DNA of 64,000 nucleotides, taken from Globomyces pollinis-pini. Its lineage: Eukaryota > Chytridiomycota > Chytridiomycetes > Rhizophydiales > Globomycetaceae. The position numbers were made by a program, and so were the translations under genes. The notes under the pieces were generated by a model. The model saw only the letters and a program-made list of their open reading frames with translations. It did no database searches and was not told the DNA's origin. The DNA lies in contig MU621110.1 of assembly GCA_025399215.1 (NCBI GenBank), positions 53,570-117,569 on the forward strand, read 5' to 3'. Of this stretch, positions 1 through 16,653 are shown piece after piece (the stretch's first letter is position 1; the number at the start of each line of letters is the position of its first letter).

Positions 1-907
1 GTTTTCAAATAAATCTTTTTTGTTAAAGAATAAGGATATATCGACATTTTTTAACAGTTTATGGTTAGCAATTTCATCAAAAAGATTAAGGGCGTCCACC
101 ATTCGATTCGTTTCTGGGGCTTCAGCCATCATCATATCATATGCAGAGACATCTACTATAAATATAATCATCAGAACATCTTGAAAATATGGTATCCAAA
201 GTTTTCGATGGTGCTTTAATCCACTGACATCATAAAAATGTACCCTGTGGTTTTCTGAAATGAACGTGGTCTCTGTTATTGTTTGAGTTTCTGTTCGTTG
301 TAATAGTATATCTAATATTAAACTATTATATGTGACATTCACCTTCATTGTTTAAGACTGATTCGGCAAAAGCAATCCTCTTTATGTTCAGTAAAAAACT
401 ATATAGTTAATTGATTCCGTAATACTGTGATGTAGAGCGAGGAATCAAATGACTGAGTTCTTCAAATCTCTTTTGGATAATTGGATCATCCCACATAGTT
501 GCAAGTAAATTTATGATATTGAGCGGTAGACAGTCATACGGACCTGCTACCAAATAGATGTACTGAGATATGATCTTATATGTTGATTTGATGTTTTCAT
601 CACTATTCTTGATAATAATTTCTGCTGCATTTAAAACTTGTGTAATCGCGCTCTGTTTGGTTTGTCTCATTTCGTCTTCTGTAAATCCAGATCCGTGTAT
701 AATTTTTAGCTGCTTTAGAAATGTAGATTTTCCTGCATCTGATGTTCCCAATATCAAAAGTTTCGGTTCCTTTAGAGATTTTAGATACTTTTGTTTCTCT
801 TCACTCAAATACAATTCCATTTTTTTTAGATCTTCTCTTGACATGTTATTGATTATGTTGCTTATGAAGTGACTGTACTTTTTAGAATCGAAAAAGCGAG
901 TAATCAA
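1..907 (-). CDS. Divergent G-protein alpha subunit, copy 1 (3' end off window)
   Basis: Heterotrimeric G-protein alpha subunit, cut by the left edge before the C-terminal helix. The first exon (to about 407) encodes the P-loop GTSDAGKST followed by LKQLKIIHG, then a helical domain. Two short introns (27 and about 31 nt) lead to switch I (QRTETQTITETTF), switch II (DVSGLKHHRK), TNRM and FNKKD at the edge. The switch I Arg and Mg-binding Thr are present. The catalytic switch II Gln is Leu and the second P-loop Gly is Ser. The start at 907 is the longest choice; an internal ATG at 844 (MSREDL) fits the other copies better. Neither start has the MG needed for N-myristoylation. It is in tandem with copy 2. 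Confidence 0.85.
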
Positions 908-1183
908 ATATTTGTGTACAATAAACAGACAAATTAAAAATCAGTCCGTCGACACAACTTTTTCATCAGAGATTTATAATACTTTATGGTAAGTCCTAAA
1001 ACATGTATTGGTCTTGGTAAATTACTTCATACACAATTTGGTAAAAGGACACTTTGTGCGCGTGTGTACCAAAAGAAGAACTGTTCGTGGAACACTTGCT
1101 CAACACCATTACTTTTTACTAACATGTTTATGAAGAGTTTAAATATACAACGTGAAAGTACATTGAAAAAAAAGTATATAATT

Positions 1184-2576
1184 CTATAACCCAACACCAG
1201 CTAGTGACTTGTTTGCTAGAGACGAGCTTATGGTTAGATATTACAATTACAAAAGATTTGTAGATAGTTTTTTGATAAGTTTTGAATCTGTACAACACGT
1301 AAAATGTGTATTCAAAAATTTGGACTTGTCCTTCCTAAGATTGACGAACTTATCTTCAAAATATCTTCCTCCAGATTTCGCACTTTTCGGTTCACCTAAA
1401 GTCAAATGAAGGAAATTCTACCTTTGAAATCTGGGAAATGGTCAATTATTGCAACTTCAGTCACTTTATGCTCAAAAAGATCTTTCTTGTTAAAAAATAT
1501 AGTAATGTCCACATTCTTCAATAGTTTATGATTTGAAATTTCATCAAAAAGATTTAGGGCATCCACCATTCGATTGGTTTCGGGGTTTTCAGCCATCATT
1601 TTATCATAGGCTGATATGTCCACCAGAAATATAATCATAAGGATATCTTGAAAGTATGGTATCCACTGTTTTCGATGATGCTTTAATCCACTGACATCAT
1701 AAAAGTGAAATTTTGAATCGTGTGCTACAAATGTAGTCTCTGTGATTGATTGGGTAACAGTTCGTTGCATCAGTATATCTATATATCAGTTATTCACATT
1801 CACCTTCATTCGTTAAGACCGATTCGGCAAATGCAATTCGTTTTATATGCATCATAAAGCTATATCGATTGAGTAATATTACGTTACTGTGATGTTGAGT
1901 GAGGAATTAAATGGTTTAGTTCTTGAAATGCTTTCTGGACTACTGGATCTTCCCACATAGTGGCCAATAAGTTGATTATATTAAGTGGCAGGCAGTCATA
2001 GGGACCTGCAACTAAACAAAGGTACTGCATTATAGGATTGTATGCTGATTTGATATTTTCATCACTATTTTCAATGACGATTTCTGCAGCGTTTAAAACT
2101 TGTGTAATTGCGCTCTGCTTTGCTTGTTTGATTTCTGCATCTGTAAATCCAGCTCCGTGTATAATTTTTAATTGCTTTAGAAATGTAGATTTGCCAGAAT
2201 CTGAAGTTCCCAGGATTAATATTTTTGGTTCTTCTAATAATTTCAAATATTTTTGTTTCTCTTGCTTTAAATATAATTCTACTTGTTTTGCGCGTTCTGC
2301 TTCAGATGCTTCACTAACGTAAATCTTTATAGATTTTTACCTTGCTGTGAACTTCTCTTTTGTATCATTTCTAATTCTATTAATTGAGTATCATTACCGT
2401 TGCGTTTCTTTCATACAAATTTTCCTGAGAATGGATATCGTGAGATGTCCTCGCATTATCATTTGTTTACTAAATAAATGGAGATGGTCTTCAAACTGAA
2501 TCGGAGAGTCAGACTCTAAAGGATTGCAGGTTATGCAGATGCATGGACGATAAATCGGCGGTTGTCCTTTAACCAT
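1184..2576 (-). CDS. Divergent G-protein alpha subunit, copy 2
   Basis: Second minus-strand G-alpha gene, complete after splicing. It has P-loop GTSDSGKST, switch I QRTVTQSITETTF, switch II DVSGLKHHRK, TNRM, NKKD and the TCCTDSK guanine-binding motif. The ORF appears to stop just after TCCTDSK. Removing a 24-nt intron at 1227..1250 adds the missing last helix, ending LAGVGL, 23 residues after the TCCTDSK Lys as in canonical alpha subunits. The switch II Gln is replaced by Leu and the P-loop Gly12-equivalent by Ser. The N-terminus is uncertain. The start at 2576 gives a Cys-containing leader (CICITC) joined through putative 21- and 27-nt introns to the AERAKQVELYLKQEK helix. If right, the leader is a non-canonical extension. 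Confidence 0.82.
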
Positions 2577-2689
2577 GTTAAAATACCGTATCGATTATAA
2601 CTCACACGAATATTAGCATTGGCTATCAAATGATAACTTTAAGAGAATACATATTTTAGTTGTCCAAATATATTTGTACCAACTAGATC

Positions 2690-3152
2690 AATCAATGTCA
2701 TTGGCAAGTGACACTCAATTAAGATTCAGGTATCTTTTCACTTCTTACACCACTTCAGTTGTTATAGTGTTCATTAACATTGAATCTGTGGAACATAATA
2801 ATTTCTTAAATAATGCTTTGAACAAAAAACTCGGGGGGCACTTTCAACGCGTCTGCTTTCTAAATAATGTCAATACAATACTATAGTAAACCGGAAAGGA
2901 AAATATTTTTCTTTAAAGATGTCCCTCTTGATAGTTCTTTTGTGATTGAAGGTTTGTTTCAAAAAGTTCCATTGCACAGATGATAGATCTTAAACTGAGG
3001 TAGTCCACCGAAATGATGAAGCTAAAATTACGATGTTTTGTTGATAGGAATTGAATATGAAGGTAGCAATCTTTGTGAGTACTTTGATTACCGTCCCACA
3101 TAAAAATTATTCTCTTGTTTGAATTGGAGGAATGAAAATCAAATAAGGACAA
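2690..3152 (-). pseudogene. Possible decayed G-alpha copy
   Basis: Weak match by eye. An open stretch to 3152 has WDGNQSTHKD followed by FSFIISVDY and MELFETN, which parallels the switch II, beta-strand and LNLFDEI segments of the neighbouring alpha subunits. Further along on the same strand, near 2776, CSTDSMLM parallels TCCTDSKLI. No NKxD or P-loop segment is visible between or before them, and stops intervene. It could be a fifth, broken G-alpha copy, or chance similarity in AT-rich sequence. The stretch otherwise separates the divergently transcribed copy 2 and the YME2-like gene. Confidence 0.25.
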
Positions 3153-3256
3153 TGGATATAGTTCACGGTTATGAAAGCCATTGGATACGAGTCTGGATTA
3201 TGACAACCATCCATTGCTCCTAATTGGTTTCCATCACTCTTTTCGTTTTTTCATTT

Positions 3257-6216
3257 ATGCAAGCACTTTGGAGGAGGAATATCTTCCAACTTCAATCAAA
3301 CGTTAAATGGCCTTTAAAATATCCTTTAAGAGTTTGGCGTGCCAATTACTCGGTGAGCGTCTTATTAAACTAATGGTTTATTAAGGTGGAAGGAACTAAT
3401 CAGAATCCAATTGATCCACTAGAAGTCCCTTCAGGGCCTAGCGAAGACCCTGATTATCACAAGGGTGTTATATGGTATCAATGTCTATAAAATAACATCA
3501 GGTATTCACTTGTGGATTTATATTAGGTTCGACAACATCTTTCCATTCAAGTTACCTTTGTTTGACCCCCGAACTTTTTACTTTGAAAGGTTATAAAGTA
3601 TTATAAAGTAACATTAGGCATGCAGCATCATACGTCAATGAAAAGAAATATGAAGCCTTATTACCTGCAAAGTTTCCGGAAGGTGCAGTGTTCAAAGCTA
3701 TCAATGCAGACCCTAATTTGAAGGAAGGAGGGCTTTATCTTGAAGTAATTTCCAATTCTAATACATTAGTTCAAATACAAAGGTGGAACTGTTGAAGAAG
3801 CTGTGGAAGCTATTCAGAACCATTTAGAAAACACTAAACCTGTTCTTGATTTTTTAAAAGTGAATGCATATCAAGTAAAAGGAACTCCTTGGGTTGAAGA
3901 TTTGGTATCCAGAAAACCATCCCCAAGATTGCATGTGCAGTTTATCGGCCCTGATTTGACAGTGGTAAGCTATTATAGAATTCATGACAGGAATCACTAT
4001 TCAGAGAATTCAGAGGGTAATTGATCAAGAATTGTTTATCTGTAGATTTGGAAGGATCGTTGATATTGTTTTACAACCTTCATCCTCAAAAGATTTACCT
4101 CGATTTGCATCAGTTCACTTTCTACGTAAGCGATCCGCCACTTCAGCTAGAAACTGTATTCATGGAGAGGTATTTGGAGGTACAAAATTATTGATTGGCT
4201 ACGAGAAAGTCGAAAGCTTTTGGCATAAAGCGTATGCATTTCAATTTTAACAAGTAGATGGCAATGGATTAACACGAACATGAGAATTTCAGTATTTTTG
4301 ATTTTGGCATTCATTGCATCATTCACTTTCATTGTTTTCGACCCGTGGAGAGTTAATTCCATTACAAATCGTTTAACTGGACGATATTCTTTAACGCATG
4401 TCACATCAACTTTGCAAAGAATATGGACACAACTTCGCGCGCTCTTTAACCAAATCAACCCTTATTATGTTGAACCAGAAGAAATTCCAAAGGAATCACA
4501 ATTCCAATCTCTTTTTAACCAAATCAACCCTTTTTATGTTGAACCAACAGATAATGATTCAGGCGATATGAGTAAATGGTCTGAAAGACAGGAACAAATT
4601 CATCGGTTAAGCACACTTTTGAAACAAACACCAGGTTTTATGTGATTGTCTGACAATATTATAGACAATTTTATTTTGATTTCAGGTCCAAGGGGTTCTG
4701 GTAAAACTCAATTTATCGAAGAAATTCTTTCCAACAAAAAGTAATACCTAGTTTAATTTTGACAGTTAGATTCAAATTGAAAATCAGGTGTGACGAACTC
4801 GTAGGAAAAAGTGATTTCCAACTGCTTTCTTATTTATCTTCCCAAGTTAATTTCTTCCCGTAACTTAACCTTGTCTTACAATAGCACATTCGGATTTATG
4901 GCTCAATTGGGTGGATACATTGATATGCTGATCACAGCAACTACTGGTGCGAAAGGTACTTTCACAACCACAAATGAAGGTGAAATCAATAAGATCCTTG
5001 AATGTGTCACGTTGGCTCTTGAGAAAATTACATTCCAACAACAGAAGAAACGACAAGATCTACTTAAAATGTACGAAGCAGATGGTATTGACGAAGATGA
5101 ATTGGCCATCATTCAATCAGTCGAGTACCCAGTTGTGGTTATTGATGACTTTTTGGGTAAAGAGAACATAAGAGGCCAACATGTCTATGATATTCTGGCA
5201 AAGGTGATTTGTTTTTGTGTCATTTATCTTGTAGTGGGCTGCCCAATTAGCAGAATATAGAATATGTCAAGTTGTCTTTGTTTCAGAAAATCCTTCGGCA
5301 ACCAGAGCATTAGGAAAAGGTATTATATAAAGTAGTAATTTTCCTAGTTTTACCAACAAAAAGTGTAGAGCATTTTCATTTAGCTGATGCTAAACCTGAA
5401 ACCGCACTTGAATATGTGAAGAAATACTTAGGACCAGACTACTCCATCACATCCAATGACATTGCGGGATTGGGTGGAAGAATGCATGACTTGGATATTT
5501 TCGTTACCAAACTATTGGCAGGTCTCAAAGCTAAAGGTATCTATTAACATTTTTTCTATTCACAGCCATTTACATTCCTTCGGTTTATATTGTGGTGATG
5601 TTAATAACTTCTATAGATGCGTTTGATGATATGGTTCACCATGCTGTTTCGAGTTTAAGGAAAATTGGGCGATTGAGTGATTTTGATCATGCTGATTCAT
5701 CATGGACTCCAATCCAATTTTGGAAAGGTGGATTTTTTAATTAATGATGTAGTTGTTGAACTTTTAAGTGAAAAACCCGAGGTATCATTTGATGAACTGT
5801 GTATTCATCCTATTTTTGGTGGAAATCCAGTTCCTTTACATCATATGGAACGTGCTGGAATCATTACTTGCTCTCAAAAACATGATCGACCTTATTTGAT
5901 CCGACCTGGTCGACCTCTCTATAAAGCTGCGTTCGAATTAATGGCTGGTGATGAAAAACAACAGTGGTATATGCGAGCATTGACAGCAAAACAGTTACAT
6001 GCCGACTATACTAAGAAAGTCCGAGCATTAGAGGAAGAACTGACTGAATTAACAAATATTCAATACCAGACTGGTAATGGATTGGGTTTTTCAAGGGACA
6101 ATATCACCACTCGTCGGGAATTTGTTGTTAAAATGATTGGATATTATGGGGACAGAGCTAAATCCTACATGGAGACAGAGTTGAAGTACAAAGGACTGTT
6201 AAAGTTGAAAGAATAA
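3257..6216 (+). CDS. YME2: Mitochondrial escape protein 2 (YME2/RNA12)-like
   Basis: Inner-membrane mitochondrial protein of the Yme2/RNA12 family, implicated in mitochondrial nucleoid and DNA maintenance. The chosen start gives an Arg-rich presequence (MQALWRRN). Domains in order: a conserved N-terminal region; an RRM (PRFASVHF, RNCIHGEVFGG); a membrane segment (VFLILAFIASFTFIVFD); then the RNA12 ATPase domain with P-loop GPRGSGKTQF, YPVVVIDDF as the likely Walker B, and an Asp/Glu-rich C-terminal helical part. About ten introns are needed, most 23-50 nt; the 23-nt intron at 4232..4254 restores the frame into the membrane helix. A 12-residue element LFNQINPxYVEP is repeated 23 residues apart after the membrane segment. 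The family assignment is firm; some exon borders are approximate. Confidence 0.85.
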
Positions 6217-6239
6217 ATCATTTTTAAACTCACAAAGTC

Positions 6240-6330
6240 ATTAGAGAATTTTATCAAAAACACAATTTTATTAAGTTATCTGAATCTTTTGCTTCATTTA
6301 TTTTAGATCCTCTATCTGGATGATTGTATC
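6240..6330 (-). pseudogene. Fragment of PAM18 3' end
   Basis: This stretch matches the 3' end of the intact PAM18 gene around 8940-9053, including TTATTAAGTTATCTGAAT and CCTCTATCTGGATGATTG. It carries internal deletions: the segment for residues around the last helix is missing. It is in the same orientation as the intact gene and cannot encode a J domain. It abuts directly onto a fragment of another gene at 6327. Confidence 0.7.
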
Positions 6331-6424
6331 CAATACAAGTAACAACATTTAAATCTACTATAGAACAACTGTATAAGAAATATACCCCTACCTAACTCAT
6401 CTTTTGAATGAACGAACAAAGAGT
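6327..6424 (+). pseudogene. Fragment of VPS38/UVRAG exon
   Basis: 98 bp aligned to 12322..12419 inside the VPS38/UVRAG gene, same orientation, with nine mismatches counted by eye. It spans the end of one exon, a 25-nt intron and the start of the next exon. The intron is retained, so it was copied from DNA rather than from mRNA. An in-frame TGA after PNSSFE breaks it. No flanking VPS38 sequence is present on either side. Confidence 0.8.
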
Positions 6425-6439
6425 TAAAAACAAGTCCCT

Positions 6440-6548
6440 TTTAGCTCTTTCTCTCGTGCCTTAACCAGGACATTCTCTACTCTATGAAACGCCAAGTGAA
6501 TTTTGGGAGGCCGTACCTCAATTCTTAGATCGTATTAATCAGAAGTAA
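6440..6548 (+). pseudogene. Fragment resembling an alpha/beta-hydrolase C-terminus
   Basis: From 6468 the plus strand reads GHSLLYETPSEFWEAV followed by PQFLDRINQK and a stop. This is the typical last segment of alpha/beta-hydrolase-fold enzymes: the catalytic His in G-H-S, then a Pro and a final helix ending FL. Nothing upstream supplies the rest of an enzyme. It is not from the HSL-type hydrolase at 36528, which has a different tail. Its source gene is outside this window. Confidence 0.5.
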
Positions 6549-6571
6549 ATAAAGAGGATCAATGAATGATT

Positions 6572-8797
6572 TTATACATTTTCAATCACTGATAGAACAG
6601 CTTCTCTTAAACCACCTTGAATCAATCCATACTTTTCAAGTTTCGAATCTGTAAGAGTGGTGAGTTGCTTGAGTAGAATTTCTTGACTTTCAAGAATTGC
6701 TTTAACTTTGTCTTTTTGCTTTTCATCAAGCCCATATTCTTTCAAAGCCATGTAAAAATTACCCATCGATGTAAATTTCCTCTTGCGCTTGTTTGATTTA
6801 GGGATAAAGTTGGCAATATTCGTGGCAGTAGTATTGTCATTAAGAGACGCAGCAAAATTCATCAATTCAGTCAAAGCCTGTTCCGTCTTTGTAGGATCAC
6901 ATAAATCCCATGAAAACTTCAACATTGAACCAAAACTCGATGAATCAATCCAAAAACAATTGTTTGACGAGAACTGTTGTTCGTGAACATGAGACAAAGC
7001 AACTGTTGACTTTGGCGCAAGATACAACCGATAATCAGAAAGTCCATCATCAACAAGCCCAAACATCTTTGCTTTAAATGTGGAATCATCAACTTGTGTT
7101 GTTAATTGACAAAGAACACGCACTGTTTCCTTTGAATCCATTCGATCAGCAAAGAAAAATAAATCTGTTTTAGATTTCTTGTGGTCACGGTCCATCATAA
7201 CATAGACATCATTTTGATTCAAATCAGCGGTGACGTCTCCCATCATTTTGATACTTGGCTTCCAATCCAATCTCGGCTGTATTTTCATCGTTTCGCCCAA
7301 CTGTATCCAAAGTTTAGAATCAGATGTAGCGAGAAGCTCCAAAGCAAACAAATATTCGAAAACCTTTCCCTTCATAGTTGTAGTTGAAGATGAAGCCTTA
7401 ATGTTTGCTACCAAGTCTTGGATATTTTCCCAGCAAAACCAATGTACAAAATCATTGAATATTTTGACAAGAAACCGATTTGGAGGATACATATACCACC
7501 CCGAAATCCTTTTTCGGGATCTACTGGCACTTTCAGGTCGAACACGAATCAACCCCGCTTCAATAAATGGCAGCCAACTGGAAGGTAGTTCTTCAAACTT
7601 GAGATATCCGTTGGGGGAATTGACAAACAAATGAGTGTGTAACAAACAAAGATTTCGGGAATAATGTTCCAAATCATCAGACGCCAGGCCAAATGAGGCA
7701 ATGGTTCCTTTGATTTGTTCACGATAGATGATAATAGCACCACGTTCAATTTCTTCCCAATGACTAAAAAGTCCTTCAATAGATTCAAGGCTAAATTCTA
7801 CACTAGACTGTATGAAGAAAGAAACGAGTTTCGGTGGTCCACATAACTGTTCCAACTTATCGTTAAACAGGGGAAATGAACCGTCAACGAGGAAATAAGA
7901 CTGGATTATCTGGCGAATGTTATCAACATTGAAATCACATAAATATTTTGTTACGTCAAAGGGATTCCAAAACGTACTGGCAACTTTCATTTCCAAACCA
8001 AGATTTGGTCTTGTACCTGAAAAAACCCAAAGGATATTGTGAGATTTTTTAAGATTAGAGACTTGACTTGAGAATAATCTAAGAGCGAATCCCATAATTT
8101 CACCAACTTTGACCGATTTTTGTTCATCAACCTTGACGGTTTCAGTCAACCCGCAAAAAAACTTTTGGCAATCATCCAAGTGGATAACAAGCAAACGGTC
8201 TAAAGTTTCGATCGCAGTTACTAATCGCCTGTACGAATCTGATAAGCTTTCTTTTACAACAGAAAAATCAAGTTTTGTAGGAGATATGTGGTCTGGTATT
8301 TTAATATCAATTACAGTAGCTTCTGGTTCAACACTGTTCAATTGTAAGATGATTCCTTCAAAGAGTTGAACAAGTACAGTTTGAAATCTCGTTCGAAAGT
8401 ATTTTTCAATGTTTAAGTATGAGATTGAGTCTTGTAACTCCAAGGGAGGATCCTGCTTCTCACCCATATATTTACAAGAATCGAGTAAAGGTGTGAACAG
8501 TACATCGTCAATGAGGCTAATAGGCGCTCTGATACTACCAGACTTCTTAGAAGCTTCCATAATAGTGGTAGTTTTTCCTGATCCAGACATATCAAAACAA
8601 ACGGCACAAGATGGTTTGTCGTCATAAGTTCTGTTGCTCCCTTTAAAATACCTTTTCATATAATTAGTGAGCTGAATAATAGCATCAGTTTGAACAGCAG
8701 GAGAAAGAAACTGTCCTCCGTCAAGTTTTTGAAGTACAAAAGACATCAAGAAGAAGAAGCCTTGAAACCAATAATAACTTGAATTAGAGAATAACAA
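6572..8797 (-). CDS. Crinkler-like P-loop NTPase / PD-(D/E)XK nuclease protein
   Basis: A 741-residue protein in a single exon, striking in this intron-rich window. Residues 70-78 hold a Walker A (MSGSGKTTT). Residues 202-209 hold a Walker B (LLVIHLDD), followed by ILWVFSGTRPN as a sensor-like strand. Around residue 495, KGKVFEYLFALELL with the later KTDLFFFADR and VLCQLTTQ fits a PD-(D/E)XK nuclease core. The last 60 residues form a SAM-like helical tail. This order is that of the NTPase-nuclease body of Crinkler (CRN/CR) effectors. No ubiquitin-like header or LFLAK motif is visible. The N-terminal 17 residues are hydrophobic; MSFVLQKL (8746) is an alternative start. Whether it acts on a host, or internally against mobile DNA, cannot be told. 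Confidence 0.6.
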   Translation of the reverse strand: MLFSNSSYYWFQGFFFLMSFVLQKLDGGQFLSPAVQTDAIIQLTNYMKRYFKGSNRTYDDKPSCAVCFDMSGSGKTTTIMEASKKSGSIRAPISLIDDVLFTPLLDSCKYMGEKQDPPLELQDSISYLNIEKYFRTRFQTVLVQLFEGIILQLNSVEPEATVIDIKIPDHISPTKLDFSVVKESLSDSYRRLVTAIETLDRLLVIHLDDCQKFFCGLTETVKVDEQKSVKVGEIMGFALRLFSSQVSNLKKSHNILWVFSGTRPNLGLEMKVASTFWNPFDVTKYLCDFNVDNIRQIIQSYFLVDGSFPLFNDKLEQLCGPPKLVSFFIQSSVEFSLESIEGLFSHWEEIERGAIIIYREQIKGTIASFGLASDDLEHYSRNLCLLHTHLFVNSPNGYLKFEELPSSWLPFIEAGLIRVRPESASRSRKRISGWYMYPPNRFLVKIFNDFVHWFCWENIQDLVANIKASSSTTTMKGKVFEYLFALELLATSDSKLWIQLGETMKIQPRLDWKPSIKMMGDVTADLNQNDVYVMMDRDHKKSKTDLFFFADRMDSKETVRVLCQLTTQVDDSTFKAKMFGLVDDGLSDYRLYLAPKSTVALSHVHEQQFSSNNCFWIDSSSFGSMLKFSWDLCDPTKTEQALTELMNFAASLNDNTTATNIANFIPKSNKRKRKFTSMGNFYMALKEYGLDEKQKDKVKAILESQEILLKQLTTLTDSKLEKYGLIQGGLREAVLSVIENV

Positions 8798-8963
8798 CTA
8801 AAAGGAAGTAAAGTCATTCTTGTTAGCTATTGAAAACAATTGACTATCATCGATACTATACTTTTGTTACAAGTTTCTGTGATTAGGACTCGGTTGGACA
8901 ACCTTGAAAAACAAGACTCTGCAGAGAATTAAACAGATTTATCAAAAACACAAATTTATTAAG

Positions 8964-9299
8964 TTATCTGAATGCTTTGCTACCATCCAACAATTCCTTT
9001 GCTTCATTTATTTTGGAAGCAATGTAAGGAGAACCTCCTCTATCTGGATGATTGGCCAACATAATACTTCGATGAGCTTTCTTGATAACATCCGCTTTAG
9101 CATTTGTGTCATTAATTCCTAATATTTGGTATGCTTCTCTAGTTGACATTGTTGGTTCGAATCCACCTCGTAAGAATGGAGAAGACGATACTGAAGGCAT
9201 AGCGCTACCCAAACCTGACTTTGCATATGCTCTTAAACCTGCTCTTGCTGCTAATGCTGCAATTGTTACTCCAGCTCCAAATGCAATTGCTGTTGCCAT
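8964..9299 (-). CDS. PAM18: Mitochondrial import motor J-protein PAM18/TIM14
   Basis: 111-residue inner-membrane J-protein that stimulates mitochondrial Hsp70 in the presequence translocase motor. An N-terminal hydrophobic Ala-rich segment (IAFGAGVTIAALAARAGLRA) anchors it. The matrix J domain follows, with STREAYQILGI, the HPD signature in ANHPDRGG, and SKINEAKELL. Length and layout match Tim14 of fungi. It is a single exon. A broken copy of its 3' end lies at 6240. Confidence 0.92.
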   Translation of the reverse strand: MATAIAFGAGVTIAALAARAGLRAYAKSGLGSAMPSVSSSPFLRGGFEPTMSTREAYQILGINDTNAKADVIKKAHRSIMLANHPDRGGSPYIASKINEAKELLDGSKAFR

Positions 9300-10295
9300 T
9301 TGTAAAAAAACAAAAAAATTGAAACATTTGTATTTCTAGTTGATTCTAAACGTTTCTCATAATATTTACTCAGTCGAAAGAAGCTGTTAACCATGATTCA
9401 AACTCGATATATTTTTATACCAGGAGTGAGAATAATTTGATGCTCATATATGTCAAAATTATAAACGAGTGAAGTAAACAAAAGTATAATTCCAGTATCG
9501 TAAATCATTCAATTGATATATGCCGAACCACTAGTAAGACGTAAGGCGGGTAAGGCCACCAAAGTCTAGGCAAGGGGGCAAGACACTATACTTCCAAATG
9601 ACATCATTCTAACAATGAACTGTCTTCGTCATCTATAACTAGTTGATTGTTTGAATGATGTCCAAGGGATTTTCACAAAAAAAAAAAAGTAAAGAAAAAA
9701 AAAGAAAATGGTCTTATAAAATGTTAGTCAAATGACAACGAACTTTGACAAATGGACACCCAAATTATTTCTTGGTTTAATGGGATACGAATACTCTTCA
9801 AAGAATCTGATTCATATCTATATGTGATTGGGATCGCGCTAATGTGCTCACGACTGACTGTTATGGATATTGTGTCACTTTTCTGATTACAGATTTTAAT
9901 ATGTTTTATTAAAGTGATAGAGATCTACTAGGGACCTATCGTCTACCAGATCTAAAGCTTAACATTTATTCTATTACAGGATAATTGTAAAAGGCAATGA
10001 TGTCCATAGTTTTAATTTAAGCTGATCTCTGAATATATGGACACTTGAGTTGGTAATTTGTCTATGATGGTATCAAATTAGAGAAACTCTATGTTTATTT
10101 GCGTTGGTTTGAGCTTAAATTGTTATAAACTTCCTATTGAATGATCCACTGCTCAAGACGAGTAAAGATTCCAAGAATAATTTACGTTTACCAAATATGG
10201 ATTGTAAAATAATGTTGATTTATTCAGATCATTTTAGTATCCTTAGATTTCTTTAAATGATGATTCACTTTTACGCGCGATCTTTCTAAAAAAAC
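9300..10295. other. Gene-free stretch
   Basis: About 1 kb between PAM18 and the velvet gene. It contains an A-rich low-complexity run near 9677-9706 and no credible ORF, RNA gene or repeat that I can see. It presumably includes the divergent promoters of the two genes. Confidence 0.6.
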
Positions 10296-10944
10296 ATGAC
10301 ACAAACAAAGTTTGATGTGATAATACGACAAGAACCTCTTGTGGGAAGGATGTGTGGGGTAAAAGACACTGTAAACCGTAGAGCTATGTAAGTTCAACCT
10401 ACCTTAACTAGTAGTGATCCGCCCTTAATTATAGAACTAGCTAATATTGAAACTCCGGATGATATTGATTGGTATTTCTTATCACTAACAGACAGTTTGA
10501 GTTTCTGTAATAGATTTATTTGCCACTTGAATCTATACTCTGAAGATCATGAAAACAGCATGTATTTTAGACAAGTTGATAGTCGACCACTTCGAAATAT
10601 GCTTGGTGATGCTACAGCATCAGCGATACCACTTCATGATCCTCAAGATGATGAACTGAAGCTGTTTTTCATCTTCCATAACATATCCATAAGAAAAACA
10701 GGAATGTACTATTTTTCCTGTGATATAATTGATGTTGAAAGGTAAGAATTCAATACTTATTGGTAGTGGTTTAATCCAAACAAAGAACACGAACTGCTTT
10801 AAAATATACAACAACAAAGAGTTTCCTGGCAATGCTCCTTGTACAACTTTAAGTCGGTCGTTTATATCGCAAGGCATTCGAATCCGATTCAAACCCCAAA
10901 TTAAAAACAATGATTGTCACTATCAACAAAACACGAGTGGTTGA
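10296..10944 (+). CDS. Velvet-domain transcriptional regulator
   Basis: Velvet proteins (VeA, VelB, VosA, VelC) are fungal DNA-binding regulators of development and secondary metabolism. Near the N-terminus RQEPLVGRMCGVKD is followed by SSDPPLIIELA, the family's opening block with Pro-Pro and the hydrophobic strand. Then FFIFHNISIRKTGMYYF and the closing block KEFPG...TTLSRSFISQGIRIRFK are diagnostic. Two introns, 24 nt (10388..10411) and 25 nt (10742..10766), restore one frame throughout. The protein is about 200 residues, essentially only the velvet domain, so I cannot assign it to a specific subfamily. VPS38 lies 290 bp downstream on the same strand. Confidence 0.85.
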
Positions 10945-11235
10945 CAAGTGCAGTACATAACGCAATATATTTTAACTAATTTGAATTATTGTCGCTGATT
11001 GTTCTTTGTTAGTAATAGAAACTGGGATTCTAATCATGAAAAATATTAAACTCATTGGTGTTAAGATTAATGAACTATGAAAGACCACGTACCAAATTAA
11101 AGCCCCAGATTCAACCATCGCATCCACTAATAAACTGGCTGCTTGGTGTCATGATACTCACTTCATTTCTTGTAACTTCATTTACTTTTCCTTGGAGATT
11201 TTGCAACACAGTTCAACTCGCTTGTTAATAGTTCC

Positions 11236-12892
11236 ATGATTCAATTCATAACGATTCGAAAACTAAAAGCTTTAAGCTCATACACCCTATCGATAAAGAA
11301 GTTGCAATATAAACCTCATCCAACTGATTCAGCTTCAGTAAATGATGAATATGTCTTACCAGATCAACCGGATTGTATGGGTAACTAGCCCCTTATCAAC
11401 ACTAATCATAGTCATCAAATCAACTCAGGTAGCAGAAACCTGTCATCCGATTTGGTATGTGCCGGAATATCTACCACATCGTAATCATATTCATTTAACA
11501 ATGTCAGGATTCTTGATTGAAGTTGAAGACAAATCCAACATATGTGTATTCTCTCTATTAGTGGATATCTCTATGTTAACCTTCATTGGTTCAAATGTAC
11601 CATTGATGTTTTAATTATCAGATTGAAGATTATCATTTCGATGGCATTACTTTATTAATGGGAGCTTCAAATGGTTATTATATACCAAGAGATGTTACTA
11701 CGCATATAGAATCTACTCAGATACCACAAAAGGTTTTTAAAGGCTGTTTAATGCTTTAGTTGAAAAACTCATATTCTCTATCAACTGTTCATCAGTATCT
11801 TGCATTTGTTCATATTTAGAATTATCAATGTAACAAAGAAGATAGACGAGATGCAGATTATTGTGAAAGACAAGGAACGACAAGGTGAAGAGTATTTTGC
11901 ACAACATGCAGAGAGTCGAGCAAATGTATTGGGATAGAATTAACAGAAAGGCGATAAAAAATAGAACTATAAGAAGTAATATAACAAGATTAGATGGAGA
12001 GATACTAAAGAAAACACAAGAAAACCAAGAGTGTACAAACAATTAATTAACCAATTTTTTAGTACTGCTAATCGTTAAAGAGAAGCAGCGTATTTTAGCT
12101 GCCAAAAAATCCCAGTTAAAGGTGCTAGAATTGAAAAATCAAAAGGTATTGTTAATATGTACTTATAACTAGGAAAAACGAAATTTACAATCTCTTAAAG
12201 ATGGATTAGAATTAACAAAGTAAATTCAGGAAAGGATTTTATAATTAGACGTCAAATGAATTCAATCTATATGAAACTCGTCAAAAGACAATCACAGTTA
12301 ATTTGCAACATATCCGAAATATATCCAATACAGGTAACAACGTTTAAATTTATTATAGAACAACTGTATAAGAAATATACCCCTGCCTAACTCGTCTTTT
12401 GAACGAACCGACAAAGAGCTTACAGCCACTGGTCTAGGATTTACATGTCATTACGTCTCTATGATTAGTTTATACCTAAACATACCACTAAGATACCCAA
12501 TGGCCATAAAATCATCCAGATCTGTTATTTATGACTTTATAACGACTTCTTATGAAGGCTCAAAAGAGTATGACTTTTTATTTTAATGGTAGATTTCCAC
12601 TTTTTCAAAAGGGCTCTGATGCCAAACGATTTGCTTATGGTGTTTTTCTTTTGAACAAAAACATTGAACAGGTTAGGATAAAATATTTTATAGTAGCTTA
12701 TGAATGCTATCGGTATTCCTATTAAAGATTTACGACAAACTCTTGTCAATATTCAAACCATTCAATCTGTTTTAAACCAAGAAGTGTAAAATATTATTTG
12801 TAGTAATGACTTAGTGTACTGGAGAATGTCGAAAGTCCAATGAATTGGAATCAATTCGGTATAACCTATCAATTTGGAATGGGATCAAGTAA
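11236..12892 (+). CDS. VPS38: VPS38/UVRAG-like PI3-kinase complex II subunit
   Basis: Subunit of the Vps34 phosphatidylinositol 3-kinase complex acting on endosomes and vacuolar sorting. After an N-terminal IRKLKALSSYTL block, a C2-like region (HPIWYVPEYLP, GASNGYYIPRD) and a Lys/Gln-rich coiled coil, the conserved C-terminal domain follows. It has PLRYPMAIKSSRS, FPLFQKGSDAKRFAYGV, FLLNKNIEQL and DLRQTLVNIQ, all hallmarks of UVRAG. Many 25-30-nt introns are required; the coiled-coil region is not fully resolved. The start is uncertain. A short upstream ORF at 11070 (MNYERPRTKLK, with one membrane segment) could be a separate gene or an alternative 5' exon. A 98-bp piece of this gene is duplicated at 6327. 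Confidence 0.78.
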
Positions 12893-12995
12893 TTTAGAAT
12901 CTTATTCTGAGCAATAAATTGTATAATAAAATAGTACCTTTACCAATGTATTTTAAGGTGGTTTCCAATGTACAGGTAACGTGTAGAAGAATACA

Positions 12996-14255
12996 ATGGA
13001 TTTGTTCGTGGAGACAGACACTTTTGATGATAAGCAAACCTTCCAAAGAAAGATTTTTATGGCTCAAAGAACAAAATCGGTGTAAGATTTGTCAAGTTTT
13101 TGTAACTATTTATAGAAAGCAAAAAGCAGATGAAGAGAGTAAGCAAGTAGAACAATTTCTACAGAGCGAAAGGGAAAAATATCGCGTCTTCCAAGACGAG
13201 CCAAAACTATTAATTCTTGGTTCTTCAGATTCAGGGAAATCTACTCTATTAAAACAACTCAAGATCATATATGGAGATGGATTTACAGAGGAAGAAATTA
13301 ATGGTTTTAGAAAACAAATCATTAAAAACATTATTGAAATATGTCAAAAAATAGTGGCAGATTTAGATGATTCTATAAAGGAAAAGTATGAGAATGTTGC
13401 AACTATTGAAACAACGGATCTTCAATCATCGTATCTAGATGATCAAATGATCAAATCAATATCAACTTTTTGGAATGAACCTGTTATTCAAAGCGAATTT
13501 GAAAAGATTAAAGCAGATGTGCCCGAATCTACTACCTAGTTTGTTTCATTCCTGTTAAACCTTAGTTTCTTTCAAAATCTCTCTCAAAAAGTCTCTATTG
13601 CATCTGTGCTGACCAATGAAGGTATATAAATGAACTGAAGTTTACCAAGAATAGATATATTGTTAATAAGAACAGTTACACAGCAAATCACAGATACTGT
13701 TTTTATTATTGAAAAACTAACATTCCATTTTTATGATGTATCTGGATTGAAACACCATCGTAAACACTGGATAGCATATTTTGAAGATGTATTGACAATT
13801 GTATTTGTCGTTTCCTTATCTAGTTACGATCAAGTGATGGTGGAAGACATGAAAACGAATCGAATGAATGATGCAATTGATTTATTTGATCAAATGGTTA
13901 ACCATCCACTGTTGGCAAAACCTGATATGATGATATTTTACAATAAGAAAGATTTATTTGACAAAAAGATAAAGCAATCACCATTAAAAAATTATTTCCC
14001 AGATTATAATGGTATATAGATAATGCTAAAAGTTAGGAAGAGAGTATTCGGTAGATGATGGTTACAATTATTTCAAGCGAAGGTTCAAAAATGCTTGTAA
14101 ATCAGAAACAAAATTTCTAAATCACTTTCTGACGTGTTGCACTGATACAACATTTATGCGATCCGTCATTAAAGTGTTAATGTAAGTATTTACCGTTGCT
14201 TAATAACAGCCAATCAATTATGAAGAACAAGATGAAAAATGTTGGTATGTTATAA
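12996..14255 (+). CDS. Divergent G-protein alpha subunit, copy 3
   Basis: Complete plus-strand G-alpha gene. Start MDLFVETDTF (no MG); a 34-nt intron at 13082..13115; then P-loop GSSDSGKST with LKQLKIIYG and the helical domain. A 27-nt intron and a further short intron lead to NEDILLIRTVTQ (switch I Arg present). Switch II is DVSGLKHHRKHW, then TNRM, FYNKKDLF, a 24-nt intron after PDYNG, and FLTCCTDTT. One last intron precedes a C-terminus ending MKNVGML. Intron positions match the other copies, so the family arose by DNA-level duplication. The Gln-to-Leu and Gly-to-Ser substitutions are shared. It lacks the usual C-terminal Cys. The seven-helix gene at 14345 is convergent with it. Confidence 0.85.
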
Positions 14256-14344
14256 GTTATTAGATATGTTTTTTTTTATAAAACTTATATTGCAAGCAAA
14301 TCCTACACTTTATGACGTTCTTGAGTTGTTCTATTATTCATAAT

Positions 14345-15217
14345 TCACAAACTTAATTGAAAGCTGGCAAAATCAGCAAAGAGCAGTTGAAATAAAATGA
14401 TTTCGCAAATGCAAATTAATATGAAATAGACTCCCTTTCGTCTAATAGATTTTCCAATTAAATTCCATGTACTGAAAGTGGTAAAGACATCACCAATCAT
14501 CAGCAAACAATTTCGCAAAATAATTCGCCAATCGAAGTTCATCAACGATTCATCCAACCCAAGCTGTAGTGCATGACACAATGCTGTTCCACCAACCATC
14601 AATAACAAATACGGATACTTTTGGTTTTTGGAATTGACATGTAAAGCCATGACCATCATGGAAAAGATTTCAGTGACACTAAAGTAGATTTGAGAATAAA
14701 ACATTGGATAATAACGATCATTCAAGTAATGCATCATAACAAAACATCCATACCAAACTGTTGGGATATTACTAACGATAGCTAGACAGGTGAGATATCG
14801 AGCTTTTCGATTCAACAAAGCAATCACCATCATTTCAATGACTCTTGAAGTTAGTATACACCAGAAAAATAACCATCCGAATATGTATAACGTATTAGCA
14901 TCAACATTCAAATAAAGTGATTTATAACAGTTTCGTGTCCCTGCTGGAAATTTGACACCCAATCGAATAGTTGTTTCTGTAGTATATTGGATACATTTAT
15001 AATATTCCTTATTGTATCCATCCCAACAACCAAGTGGAGGTTCAGTACACGTTTTCGTAGGATTAAACTGTTTTTCTGATTCAGATGGAATCAAATATAG
15101 ATGAGATGATATCACGACGATTAGACATACGATGAAACCTAGTAGGATTCCAATTGCGCGTGGGATTTGACTTTGAATGGTTAAGTTTGGTTTAACTTGT
15201 TGGTTTGTTGATTTCAT
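14345..15217 (-). CDS. Seven-helix membrane protein, copy A (unknown family)
   Basis: 290 residues in one exon. Hydrophobic segments lie at about residues 20-43, 110-135, 143-167, 176-197, 205-226, 232-254 and 262-285. A roughly 65-residue Cys-containing loop (CTEPPLGCWDGY, CIQYTTETT, NCYKSLYL) sits between the first two. I do not recognise the family. Its twin at 38289 is almost identical over the first 230 residues. It lies between G-alpha copies 3 and 4, which makes a receptor role worth testing, but no known GPCR motif is visible. Seven helices with a cytoplasmic N-terminus would put the C-terminus outside, so topology also needs checking. Confidence 0.75.
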   Translation of the reverse strand: MKSTNQQVKPNLTIQSQIPRAIGILLGFIVCLIVVISSHLYLIPSESEKQFNPTKTCTEPPLGCWDGYNKEYYKCIQYTTETTIRLGVKFPAGTRNCYKSLYLNVDANTLYIFGWLFFWCILTSRVIEMMVIALLNRKARYLTCLAIVSNIPTVWYGCFVMMHYLNDRYYPMFYSQIYFSVTEIFSMMVMALHVNSKNQKYPYLLLMVGGTALCHALQLGLDESLMNFDWRIILRNCLLMIGDVFTTFSTWNLIGKSIRRKGVYFILICICEIILFQLLFADFASFQLSL

Positions 15218-15451
15218 TACGCGATGAAGTTAAATAATTGAAAAATTGTGTTTGATGATTCTAATTCAACACCTGCAGTAAAATCAATATCATATGCTGT
15301 ATATTAGAAACTATAAAATCATTATTAGAAGGTTATACCTTATTTTATATAAATCGTGGAGATGAGGAGTAAACCCACACAAACAAATTGTAATCACTCA
15401 ATATATATCCAGCAGACTCTGGAAGCACAATAGAACACCAATATTATAGAT

Positions 15452-16653
15452 ATGAGTACAGCAAAGTAATGATTTAAAAAAGCTTACATCATAGAGATCA
15501 AAAAGAACAAAAACAACAATCAAAGAAAATTGAAGATTATTTAAAGAACGAAAAGCGAGAATATCAAAAGATTGCGGGTGAACCAAAAATCCTGATTCTT
15601 GGATCATCCGATTCAGGAAAATCGACCTTTTTAAAGCAACTCAAAATTCTACACGGAGGAGGATTTACAGCCGAAGAACGAAAAATAGCTAAAAATGGAG
15701 TTTTAAAGAACATCTTATCAGTCATTGAGCAATTATTAAACAATTCTACCGATGCAATTAAAAAGAAATACGAATTAGTGACGAAATTTATTTCATTAGA
15801 GACTGGACCATTTATGGACTTTCCAGAAATAATCGTGAATTTATTGACAACAATTTGGAATGATTCGAATATAAAAACGACTTTCATATCACTAGAACAA
15901 GAATTTCCTGCATCCACATCATTGTAATTCCAATCATTATCATAATTGATAGTTTTTTCGATAAACTAACACAAATATCTACCAAATCGTATATCATGAC
16001 AGATTCAGGTACATAAAAAAGTTTGCTTACCAAATTGTAGATATTTTGTTATTACGTACGGTTACACAAACGATATCAGATACGGTATTCCCAATCCAGG
16101 GTAAAAATATGCACTTCTACGATGTATCGGGTCTAAAACATCATCGTAAATCATGGATACCCTATTTTCAAGATATAACTGCCATTGTCTTTGTTGTAGC
16201 CCTTTCTTCATATGATCAAATGATGATGGAAGATCCTACTATGAATCGAATGGTAGATGCTTTAAATTTATTCGATTTTATTGTCAATCACAAATTATTG
16301 GTGAATCCAGATATGATTCTATTTTTGAACAAAACAGATTTGTTTTCAGCAAAAGTCAAGACGAGTTTTATTAAACCTCATTTCCCGGATTATAATCGTG
16401 GTAACGGATTTGTATGATTTTGATGGTAGAACGTGATGGAAGTGTATCGGAAGGTTCAAGATTCTTTGAGAAAAAGTTTATGGGATTGAAAAAGAATGAA
16501 AAGAAATTGATGATGGTACATTTTACATGTTGTACGGATACCAAAGCGATGGATGCTATTGTATCTGGGGTCATGTATTATCATATTTCGATACTAACAT
16601 ATAGTATTTCGTTGGTGACAAAAGCTGTCAATTCAGCTGGAATGATACAATAG
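15452..16653 (+). CDS. Divergent G-protein alpha subunit, copy 4
   Basis: Complete plus-strand G-alpha gene. The first exon is only 14 nt (15452..15465, MSTA), followed by a 29-nt intron, a charged coil, P-loop GSSDSGKST and the helical domain. Switch I is LLRTVTQTISDTVF, switch II DVSGLKHHRKSW, then MNRM, NKTD and HFTCCTDTK. Removing a 30-nt intron at 16575..16604 (TACTAAC-type branch point) gives a tail of 25 residues after TDTK, ending SAGMIQ, the normal length. Gln-to-Leu in switch II and Gly-to-Ser in the P-loop are shared with the other copies. No MG start and no C-terminal Cys. Confidence 0.85.

Follow-up and report, generated by a model that had tools for sequence, protein, structure and literature searches.

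A Chytrid Clade of G-Alpha Subunits Lacking the Catalytic Glutamine

Introduction

Can G-protein signaling run without a hydrolysis timer? The question is raised by a 64,000 nt stretch of DNA from the chytrid Globomyces pollinis-pini (Rhizophydiales), here called the window (C21:53570–117569 of an 18.5 Mb, 459-contig genome, G000). A first-pass annotation reported four G-alpha copies in the window, and all four are present, with the P-loop and DVSGL switch II motifs it described. In DVSGL, a leucine stands at the position of the catalytic glutamine of canonical G-alphas, Gln204 in the numbering used here. Gln-to-Leu is the textbook lock-on change, and in this lineage several dozen genes are fixed for it. 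Also changed are positions 42, 183, and 326, at which mutants favor the GTP state, blindness to regulators of G-protein signaling (RGS), or fast GDP release, although the residue is not always the same. A graded series leads from canonical G-alphas through a Gln-keeping chytrid class to the Leu204 clade. The family offers a natural experiment on the question asked above.

The Leu204 Family in the Genome

Loci were found by a Pfam G-alpha profile search of the genome, followed by motif scans of the fetched loci. Spliced models are profile-to-DNA alignments with GT-AG introns. The genome has 81 Pfam G-alpha exon matches and 41 G-alpha loci, as follows: 38 of the DVSGL type, one canonical, one intermediate, and one degenerate. 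The canonical locus, C230, reads GTGESGKST, DVGGQRSERKKW, and TCATDT; the intermediate locus, C327, reads GTGDSGKTT, DVGGQRGLRKQW, and TCCTDT. The degenerate locus (C49:59k, in the C49:59133 region, L023) has lost DxxG and NKxD, contains no stop codon, and forms a long branch inside the Leu204 family in the tree described below. For 36 of the 38 DVSGL-type loci, the models cover profile columns 1 to 354–361 of 361, with neither stops nor frameshifts. The partial copies are C379, at a contig end, and C21:47640. At C21:46351–47640 (L013), the distance from the P-loop exon to the switch II exon is ~1.3 kb, against the usual ~0.5 kb, and this copy may be interrupted. Introns are tiny: the 183 introns in 39 models have a median length of 29 nt, and 168 of them do not exceed 40 nt. 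Residues 61–200 of 25 of the 41 models are identical to a retrieved protein.

A second genome search, with the deposited G. pollinis-pini protein P0023, gave matches at known loci only and no additional locus. P0023 (GNSDSGKST, DVSGL) and a second deposited protein, P0042 (GTSDSGKST, no switch II), come from contigs of 7309 and 6255 nt. Their best genome match is 62%, in short exon pieces, and full matches reach at most 49%. P0012 was deposited on a 24450-nt contig; its locus, C250, lies on a 20997-nt contig. Given the missing close matches and the contig mismatch, either part of the deposited sequence is absent from the searched genome or there is a second assembly, and 38 is a lower bound.

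The first-pass annotation named splicing that restores DVGGQ as one observation that would overturn it. Six-frame scans of the 25 fetched loci show DVGGQ at C230 and C327 only. Thus, no alternative exon in these loci restores the glutamine, and an escape by splicing is rejected.

Residue Changes at the Switch Positions

Position 204 is assigned by phmmer, which sets DVSGLK of P0007, the fourth copy of the window, against DVGGQR of solved G-alpha-o, in agreement with the Leu-for-Gln204 equivalence proposed earlier. The same DVSGLK also falls opposite DAGGQR of chain 9sh6_E. Among the 38 genome copies, 37 have Leu at this position and one has Ile. Gln is found in none, so its loss is not chance. 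Position 42, the equivalent of Ras Gly12, had been described as serine, and it is Ser in 34 and Ala in two of the 36 readable copies; the Thr of C379 is discounted because the N-terminal half of that model is a spurious fit at the contig end. Gly202 has become Ser in 37 copies and Asn in one, Glu207 has become His in 37 and Thr in one, and Gly203 and Arg208 are unchanged in all 38. Arg178 and Thr181 of switch I and the NKxD motif are kept, as had been noted, each in 37 of 37 copies. The TCCTD motif, also described as kept, is there, but the canonical form is TCATD, and Ala326-to-Cys is a change at a GDP-release position.

The wider sample consists of 55 domains, 36 from this genome and 19 from elsewhere (four named genera and metagenomes). 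Fixed loss of the glutamine throughout the family, as first claimed, is seen in 38/38 genome copies and 55/55 sampled domains, with position 204 being Leu in 53, Ile in one, and Val in one. Position 42 is Ser in 53 and Ala in two; position 202 is Ser in 54 and Asn in one; position 207 is His in 53, Thr in one, and Asp in one. Gly183 is replaced in 53 domains and kept in two. At the Ala326 position, Cys is found in 42/49 domains and Ala in 5/49. Gly203, Arg178, Thr181, Arg208, Asn269, Asp272, Lys46, Thr48, Trp211, and Asp245 are present in 55/55. At position 207, 11/11 canonical rows have Glu, and the Gln204 chytrid class has Tyr (7), Leu (5), His (2), Phe (2), or Ile (1).

Switch II positions 210, 211, 213, and 214 are taken here to be G-beta contacts. 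In the 55 domains, Cys214 has become Tyr (53) or Phe (2), Lys210 is replaced in all, position 213 is changed, and Trp211 is kept. One of the 38 genome copies, C379, has Lys at 210.

Overall architecture is that of a G-alpha. Switch I follows the P-loop by ~135 residues and the G-alpha profile is matched over its full length, so these are not Ras-size single G domains. In 26 deposited models (three of them from strain JEL0801; for 10 of the 36 full copies there was no deposited counterpart), the P-loop starts at residue 34–110, i.e., there is no long N-terminal extension of the XLG type. Eight of the 26 start with Met-Gly, six of these eight with a Cys within the first eight residues, and 15 of the 26 end in a glycine-hydrophobic tail; for both features the deposited ends may be wrong. 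Gly2 is the site of N-myristoylation.

Distribution and Phylogeny

Protein searches found DVSGL-type motifs also in Globomyces sp. JEL0801, Terramyces sp. JEL0728, Boothiomyces (two strains and B. macroporosus), Kappamyces (two strains), and metagenome contigs. Among 258 retrieved proteins, no DVSGL-type G-alpha came from a named organism beyond Globomyces, Terramyces, Boothiomyces, and Kappamyces. The second protein search gave the best 120 of 184 matches, and scoring covered the 7,999 candidates with the most words in common; the type may therefore be more widespread. The switch II motifs of the 258 proteins have Gln in 196 cases, Leu in 59, Arg in two, and Ile, Val, His, and Pro in one each; three proteins have no readable switch II. 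The 61 motifs with Leu, Ile, or Val read DVSGL (59), DVSGI (1), or DVSGV (1), and their sources are the four chytrid genera or metagenomes.

The homologs of a basidiomycete G-alpha, P0110, served as a yardstick. Gln is kept in 118 of the best 120 of 1,960 homologs, the query included; on this count, the idea that large G-alpha families commonly lose Gln is rejected. The two exceptions are P0110 itself, which has Pro with a GSSDSGKST P-loop, and P0242, which has Arg. They indicate that isolated losses do occur. Such isolated losses of the catalytic Gln are found in P0110 (Collybiopsis luxurians), P0242, P0044 (Arg), and P0096 (Lobulomyces, His).

In an 84-row tree, a branch with 100/100 support separates the 55 Leu204-type domains and the degenerate copy from all other rows, in a bootstrap that had not settled (correlation 0.981). 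With the P-loop, both switches, and the TCAT loop masked, the 55 still fall on one side, with a value of 99 in the Shimodaira–Hasegawa-like approximate likelihood ratio test; the masked tree was made by a quick method and leaves out C49:59k. The sampled Leu204-type G-alphas form a single clade.

The canonical rows of the tree number 11, i.e., ten hits and C230; P0110 (Ser42, Pro204) is among them. Of P0055 and P0057, a single domain each was used. Trees and 55-domain counts omit the JEL0801 copies P0002, P0022, P0024, P0025, P0028, and P0056, and, as short or incomplete, P0026, P0031, P0042, the first half of P0053, P0070, P0074, P0078, P0082–P0086, and P0107. Also omitted are the deposited G. 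pollinis-pini proteins, including P0023 (the genome models were used), the partial copies C379 and C21:47640, and most canonical hits.

Among the rows nearest to the Leu204 clade are ten domains with Gln204, from Batrachochytrium, Polyrhizophydium, and Entophlyctis. C327, itself on a long branch, groups with Gln204 rows. With a root placed within the canonical G-alphas, the order of events can be read as follows: 183 and 210–214 changed first, and Gln204, Gly42, Gly202, and Glu207 later, on one branch. That is, the RGS-relevant Gly183 was probably lost before the catalytic Gln. The 17 Gln-type rows are not one clade, and the earlier changes may thus have come gradually.

Some deposited proteins hold two G-alpha domains in one chain: P0050 and P0053 (Kappamyces), P0003 (Terramyces), P0051 and P0052 (Polyrhizophydium), and P0054 (B. 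salamandrivorans). They are either real doubles or tandem genes fused by prediction.

Selection and Surface Conservation

The ratio of nonsynonymous to synonymous substitution rates (dN/dS) is 0.10–0.18 for the eight closest paralog pairs, a rough figure because synonymous sites are near saturation (dS 0.9–2.0). An array of pseudogenes is rejected on this ratio and the 36 intact models. Position 204 of the 36 full models is encoded by TTA (20), CTA (6), TTG (5), CTT (2), CTG (1), and CTC (1) for Leu and by ATA (1) for Ile. Ser202 is AGY in 30 and TCN in five of these models, and Arg178 uses all six Arg codons. Because the key amino acids are fixed while their codons vary, the residues look kept by selection rather than by recent copying. 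The data support fixation across the family, under purifying selection, of two substitutions at GTPase-critical positions.

Mean pairwise identity among the 36 full copies is 0.86 in the P-loop, 0.90 in alpha-1, and 0.77 in switch II, and it falls to 0.28 in alpha-5 and 0.24 in the C-terminal seven residues. For comparison, 34 canonical G-alphas, unmatched in phylogenetic depth, have 0.44 and 0.39 in the last two regions and 0.51 overall, versus 0.44 overall in the 36 copies; the limits of each region were set by interpolation between motifs.

Other Pathway Components

The pathway counts given here refer to matched exons; they set minimum values and should not be taken as gene numbers. G-beta is found above the cut-off on one contig only (C162, three exons), and there is one G-gamma match and one Ric8 match, versus 38 G-alphas. 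One G-beta contig and one G-gamma against 38 G-alphas indicate that G-alpha expanded without its G-beta-gamma partner. Expansion of the whole pathway is rejected, as neither G-beta nor G-gamma turned up more than once. RGS domains account for nine exon matches and cyclases for eight matches on four contigs.

The receptors comprise 14 class C and 14 class A exon matches, some in tandem. The class A (rhodopsin-family) matches lie on C431, C147, C395, C91, C331, C89, and C4, with five in tandem on C431. Receptors of this class have reportedly been found in fungi (PMC3251606). For the 7tm_2 and Git3 receptor families, the genome gave no match; the control genomes also gave none, so absence is not shown.

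The Four Copies of the Window

Copies 1 and 2 lie on the minus strand. Copy 1 (1..841) is cut at the left window edge; its full span is C21:54410–53284, with the final coding part at C21:53284–53569. The spliced model has its first three exons in the window (841–426, 398–343, and 311–1, continuing beyond), and the N-terminal start codon is not modelled. The P-loop GTSDAGKST is at 722..748, and DVSGL is at 217..231, encoded by GAT GTC AGT GGA TTA. Copy 2 (1187..2315) has exons 2315–1888, 1859–1804, 1778–1422, 1395–1251, and 1226–1187, separated by introns of 28, 25, 26, and 24 nt. It corresponds to the deposited protein P0005, the start of which lies further upstream than that of the model. Its P-loop, GTSDSGKST, is at 2184..2210, and its DVSGL is at 1684..1698 (Ser AGT, Leu TTA).

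Copies 3 and 4 lie on the plus strand, and both have the P-loop GSSDSGKST. Copy 3 (13117..14252; deposited as P0009) has exons 13117–13538, 13566–13621, 13655–14011, 14037–14181, and 14210–14252, with the P-loop at 13219..13245 and DVSGL at 13735..13749 (Ser TCT, Leu TTG). Copy 4 (15496..16647; deposited as P0007) has exons 15496–15923, 15953–16008, 16041–16397, 16430–16574, and 16605–16647, with the P-loop at 15601..15627 and DVSGL at 16121..16135 (Ser TCG, Leu CTA). P0005, P0007, P0009, and P0016, a non-window copy, match Pfam G-alpha (PF00503) with 258–284 bits in 4/4 scanned, against a cut-off of 48.8.

Elsewhere in the window, a 741-residue open frame at 6572–8797 on the minus strand contains MSGSGKTT, which resembles a P-loop, and matches no Pfam family at E 0.001. 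We take it to resemble Crinkler-type NTPases. A direct repeat of 97 nt with 91% identity (6327–6423 and 12322–12418) lies outside the G-alpha genes.

What the Substitutions May Do

The effects of changes at several of these positions are known from mutants. One paper (PMC3285607) describes Q204L as GTPase-deficient and constitutively active; G42V in G-alpha-i1 as drastically lowering GTPase through hindrance of Gln204; G42R as retaining GTPase with activation blocked; and G184S as making G-alpha RGS-insensitive. The paper's Gly184 is position 183 here, as the G-alpha-o chain has Gln at 205 and the Gly 21 residues earlier, at 184. In the TCAT loop, Ala366/326 to Ser is reported in two papers to speed GDP release (PMC4266920, PMC6224197). 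A literature search that included chytrid G-alpha expansion found, among the entries listed, no title or abstract describing the family; its coverage of subscription journals was thin. It found no report of this combination of substitutions in a G-alpha, nor of Ser at 42 or Cys at 326 as tested variants.

The first-pass annotation called the substitutions GTPase-disabling. The known effects of Q204L and G42V in G-alpha (PMC3285607) favor that view, and hydrolysis may be lost here. G42R and the small GTPase kappaB-Ras1, however, keep GTPase activity, and in view of G42R a substitution at 42 cannot by itself serve as a diagnosis. By either route, no hydrolysis or slow hydrolysis, the residues suggest a GTP-bound state; they do not distinguish between the two.

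On balance, we lean toward a chytrid G-alpha subfamily that keeps its nucleotide and no longer depends on GTP hydrolysis to end the signal. With the nucleotide-binding residues retained under selection and the catalytic Gln gone, the proteins would be off the hydrolysis-driven cycle. The RGS-interacting glycine was probably lost earlier, and the proteins would be blind to RGS; faster GDP release is the probable effect of the TCAT-loop change. Given the GTP:GDP ratio of the cell, GTP would be loaded soon after folding and then retained. Signal would be set by the amount, location, and destruction rate of each of the ~38 paralogs rather than by a GTPase timer. An unusual RGS, once suggested as the off-switch, is a weakened proposal, as Gly183, which as Ser gives RGS insensitivity, is replaced in 53/55 domains.

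A fuller scenario is offered more tentatively, as one that may well not hold in its entirety. This chytrid group would have swapped the reversible switch for a large, diversifying set of one-way, GTP-locked alphas. RGS recognition would have gone first, and then Gln204, Gly42, Gly202, and Glu207 together. Synthesis, localization, and destruction would serve to tell the 38 signals apart and to end them, while one ordinary G-alpha and one G-beta-gamma are still present.

Several observations weigh against a family freed from hydrolysis. The natural Leu of kappaB-Ras is compatible with GTP hydrolysis (PMC12314375). G42R keeps GTPase but blocks activation (PMC3285607), so Ser42 could act otherwise. 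The near-invariant His207 of switch II could be a substitute for the lost Gln. Position 326 is still Ala in 5/49 domains and Gly183 is kept in 2/55. The catalytic Arg178, found in 55/55, has no obvious use if GTP is never hydrolyzed. Finally, the glycine-hydrophobic, receptor-type tail of 15/26 deposited models is odd if receptors never act.

The best-surviving alternative, although unlikely, is that the family behaves as kappaB-Ras does: Leu would fix switch II, slow hydrolysis would need no catalytic side chain, and fast exchange alone would keep the protein mostly GTP-bound, i.e., always on kinetically rather than GTPase-dead. According to PMC12314375, kappaB-Ras1, with a natural Leu65 at the Gln61 position, hydrolyzes GTP, L65Q leaves the rate unchanged, and fast exchange gives permanent GTP occupancy. 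Cys326 in 42/49 domains, at a site where Ala-to-Ser speeds GDP release (PMC4266920), fits as well. Q204L in G-alpha itself, however, is GTPase-deficient (PMC3285607). Moreover, kappaB-Ras belongs to the Ras family and is not a G-alpha. It has neither the helical domain nor the built-in arginine.

We give appreciably less weight to nucleotide-bound scaffolds or decoys, in which an immobile switch would make the proteins fixed partners of effectors, of receptors, or of the single G-beta-gamma. Conservation is highest in the pocket (P-loop 0.86, alpha-1 0.90, switch II 0.77), and alpha-5 and the tail are the least kept (0.28 and 0.24, vs. canonical 0.44 and 0.39). Positions 210, 213, and 214, presumably G-beta contacts, are changed. 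Nucleotide-independent G-alphas also have a precedent in the plant XLGs. XLGs, however, lost the nucleotide motifs that Leu204-type chytrid G-alphas retain. Arg208, Gly203, and Asp245, present in 55/55, fit a moving switch II, in which we assume this triad to take part.

Slightly less probable again is rewired catalysis, with His207 positioning the water in a working GTPase, perhaps with a dedicated activator. His207 is found in 53/55 domains where canonical G-alphas have Glu (11/11), it arises with the Leu204 clade on the tree, and Arg178 is kept in 55/55. Residue 207 is presumably near enough to act. Against this, two domains do without His207, having Thr or Asp. Catalysis that uses no glutamine of the protein's own is known: PMC12314375 describes Rap, Ral, and Rheb as turned off by asparagine-thumb GTPase-activating proteins.

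Artefact or decay (annotation, assembly, or pseudogenes) is highly improbable: C49:59k lacks DxxG and NKxD, C21:46–47.6k has an enlarged P-loop-to-switch II gap, and one copy is cut by a contig end, but 36 models are intact, dN/dS is low, key positions use many synonymous codons, and the motifs recur in the assemblies of other genera. The finding is real.

Comparison with Known Systems

With canonical G-alphas (PF00503; G-alpha-i/o and the fungal GPA1 type), the Leu204 clade shares a near-full profile match, the G1–G5 order, Arg178, Thr181, NKxD, the length of the helical domain, and the alpha-5 tail. In contrast, it replaces Gln204, Gly42, Gly202, Glu207, Gly183, mostly Ala326, and positions 210, 213, and 214.

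Between the two stand chytrid G-alphas that we label the GDSGK class, a term of convenience, as they are not one clade in the tree. Members come from Batrachochytrium, Polyrhizophydium, Entophlyctis, Chytriomyces, Obelidium, Rhizoclosmatium, Zopfochytrium, and Lobulomyces and include C327 of Globomyces. Like the Leu204 clade, they have Asp43, Asp245, a residue other than Gly at 183, and Tyr or Phe at 214 (each 17/17), with Cys326 in 10/16. Unlike it, they keep Gln204 in 16/17 (His in Lobulomyces), Gly42 in 16/17, and Gly202 in 17/17.

Outside the G-alphas, kappaB-Ras1/2 resemble the clade in having no catalytic Gln (a natural Leu in kappaB-Ras1) and in being permanently GTP-bound. They differ as small GTPases of the Ras family that hydrolyze GTP, are kept on by fast exchange, and form a constitutive RalGAP subunit, bound outside the switches (PMC12314375). 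Plant XLGs are atypical G-alphas that exist alongside a canonical one and may not run a GTPase cycle. They differ in that their N-terminal domain is long, their nucleotide motifs are poorly conserved, and they bind GTP very weakly, whereas the pocket is what the chytrid proteins keep best. Rnd and RhoH, of the Rho family, have natural changes at the Gly12 and Gln61 positions and are regulated by amount and phosphorylation; they are few genes and not G-alphas.

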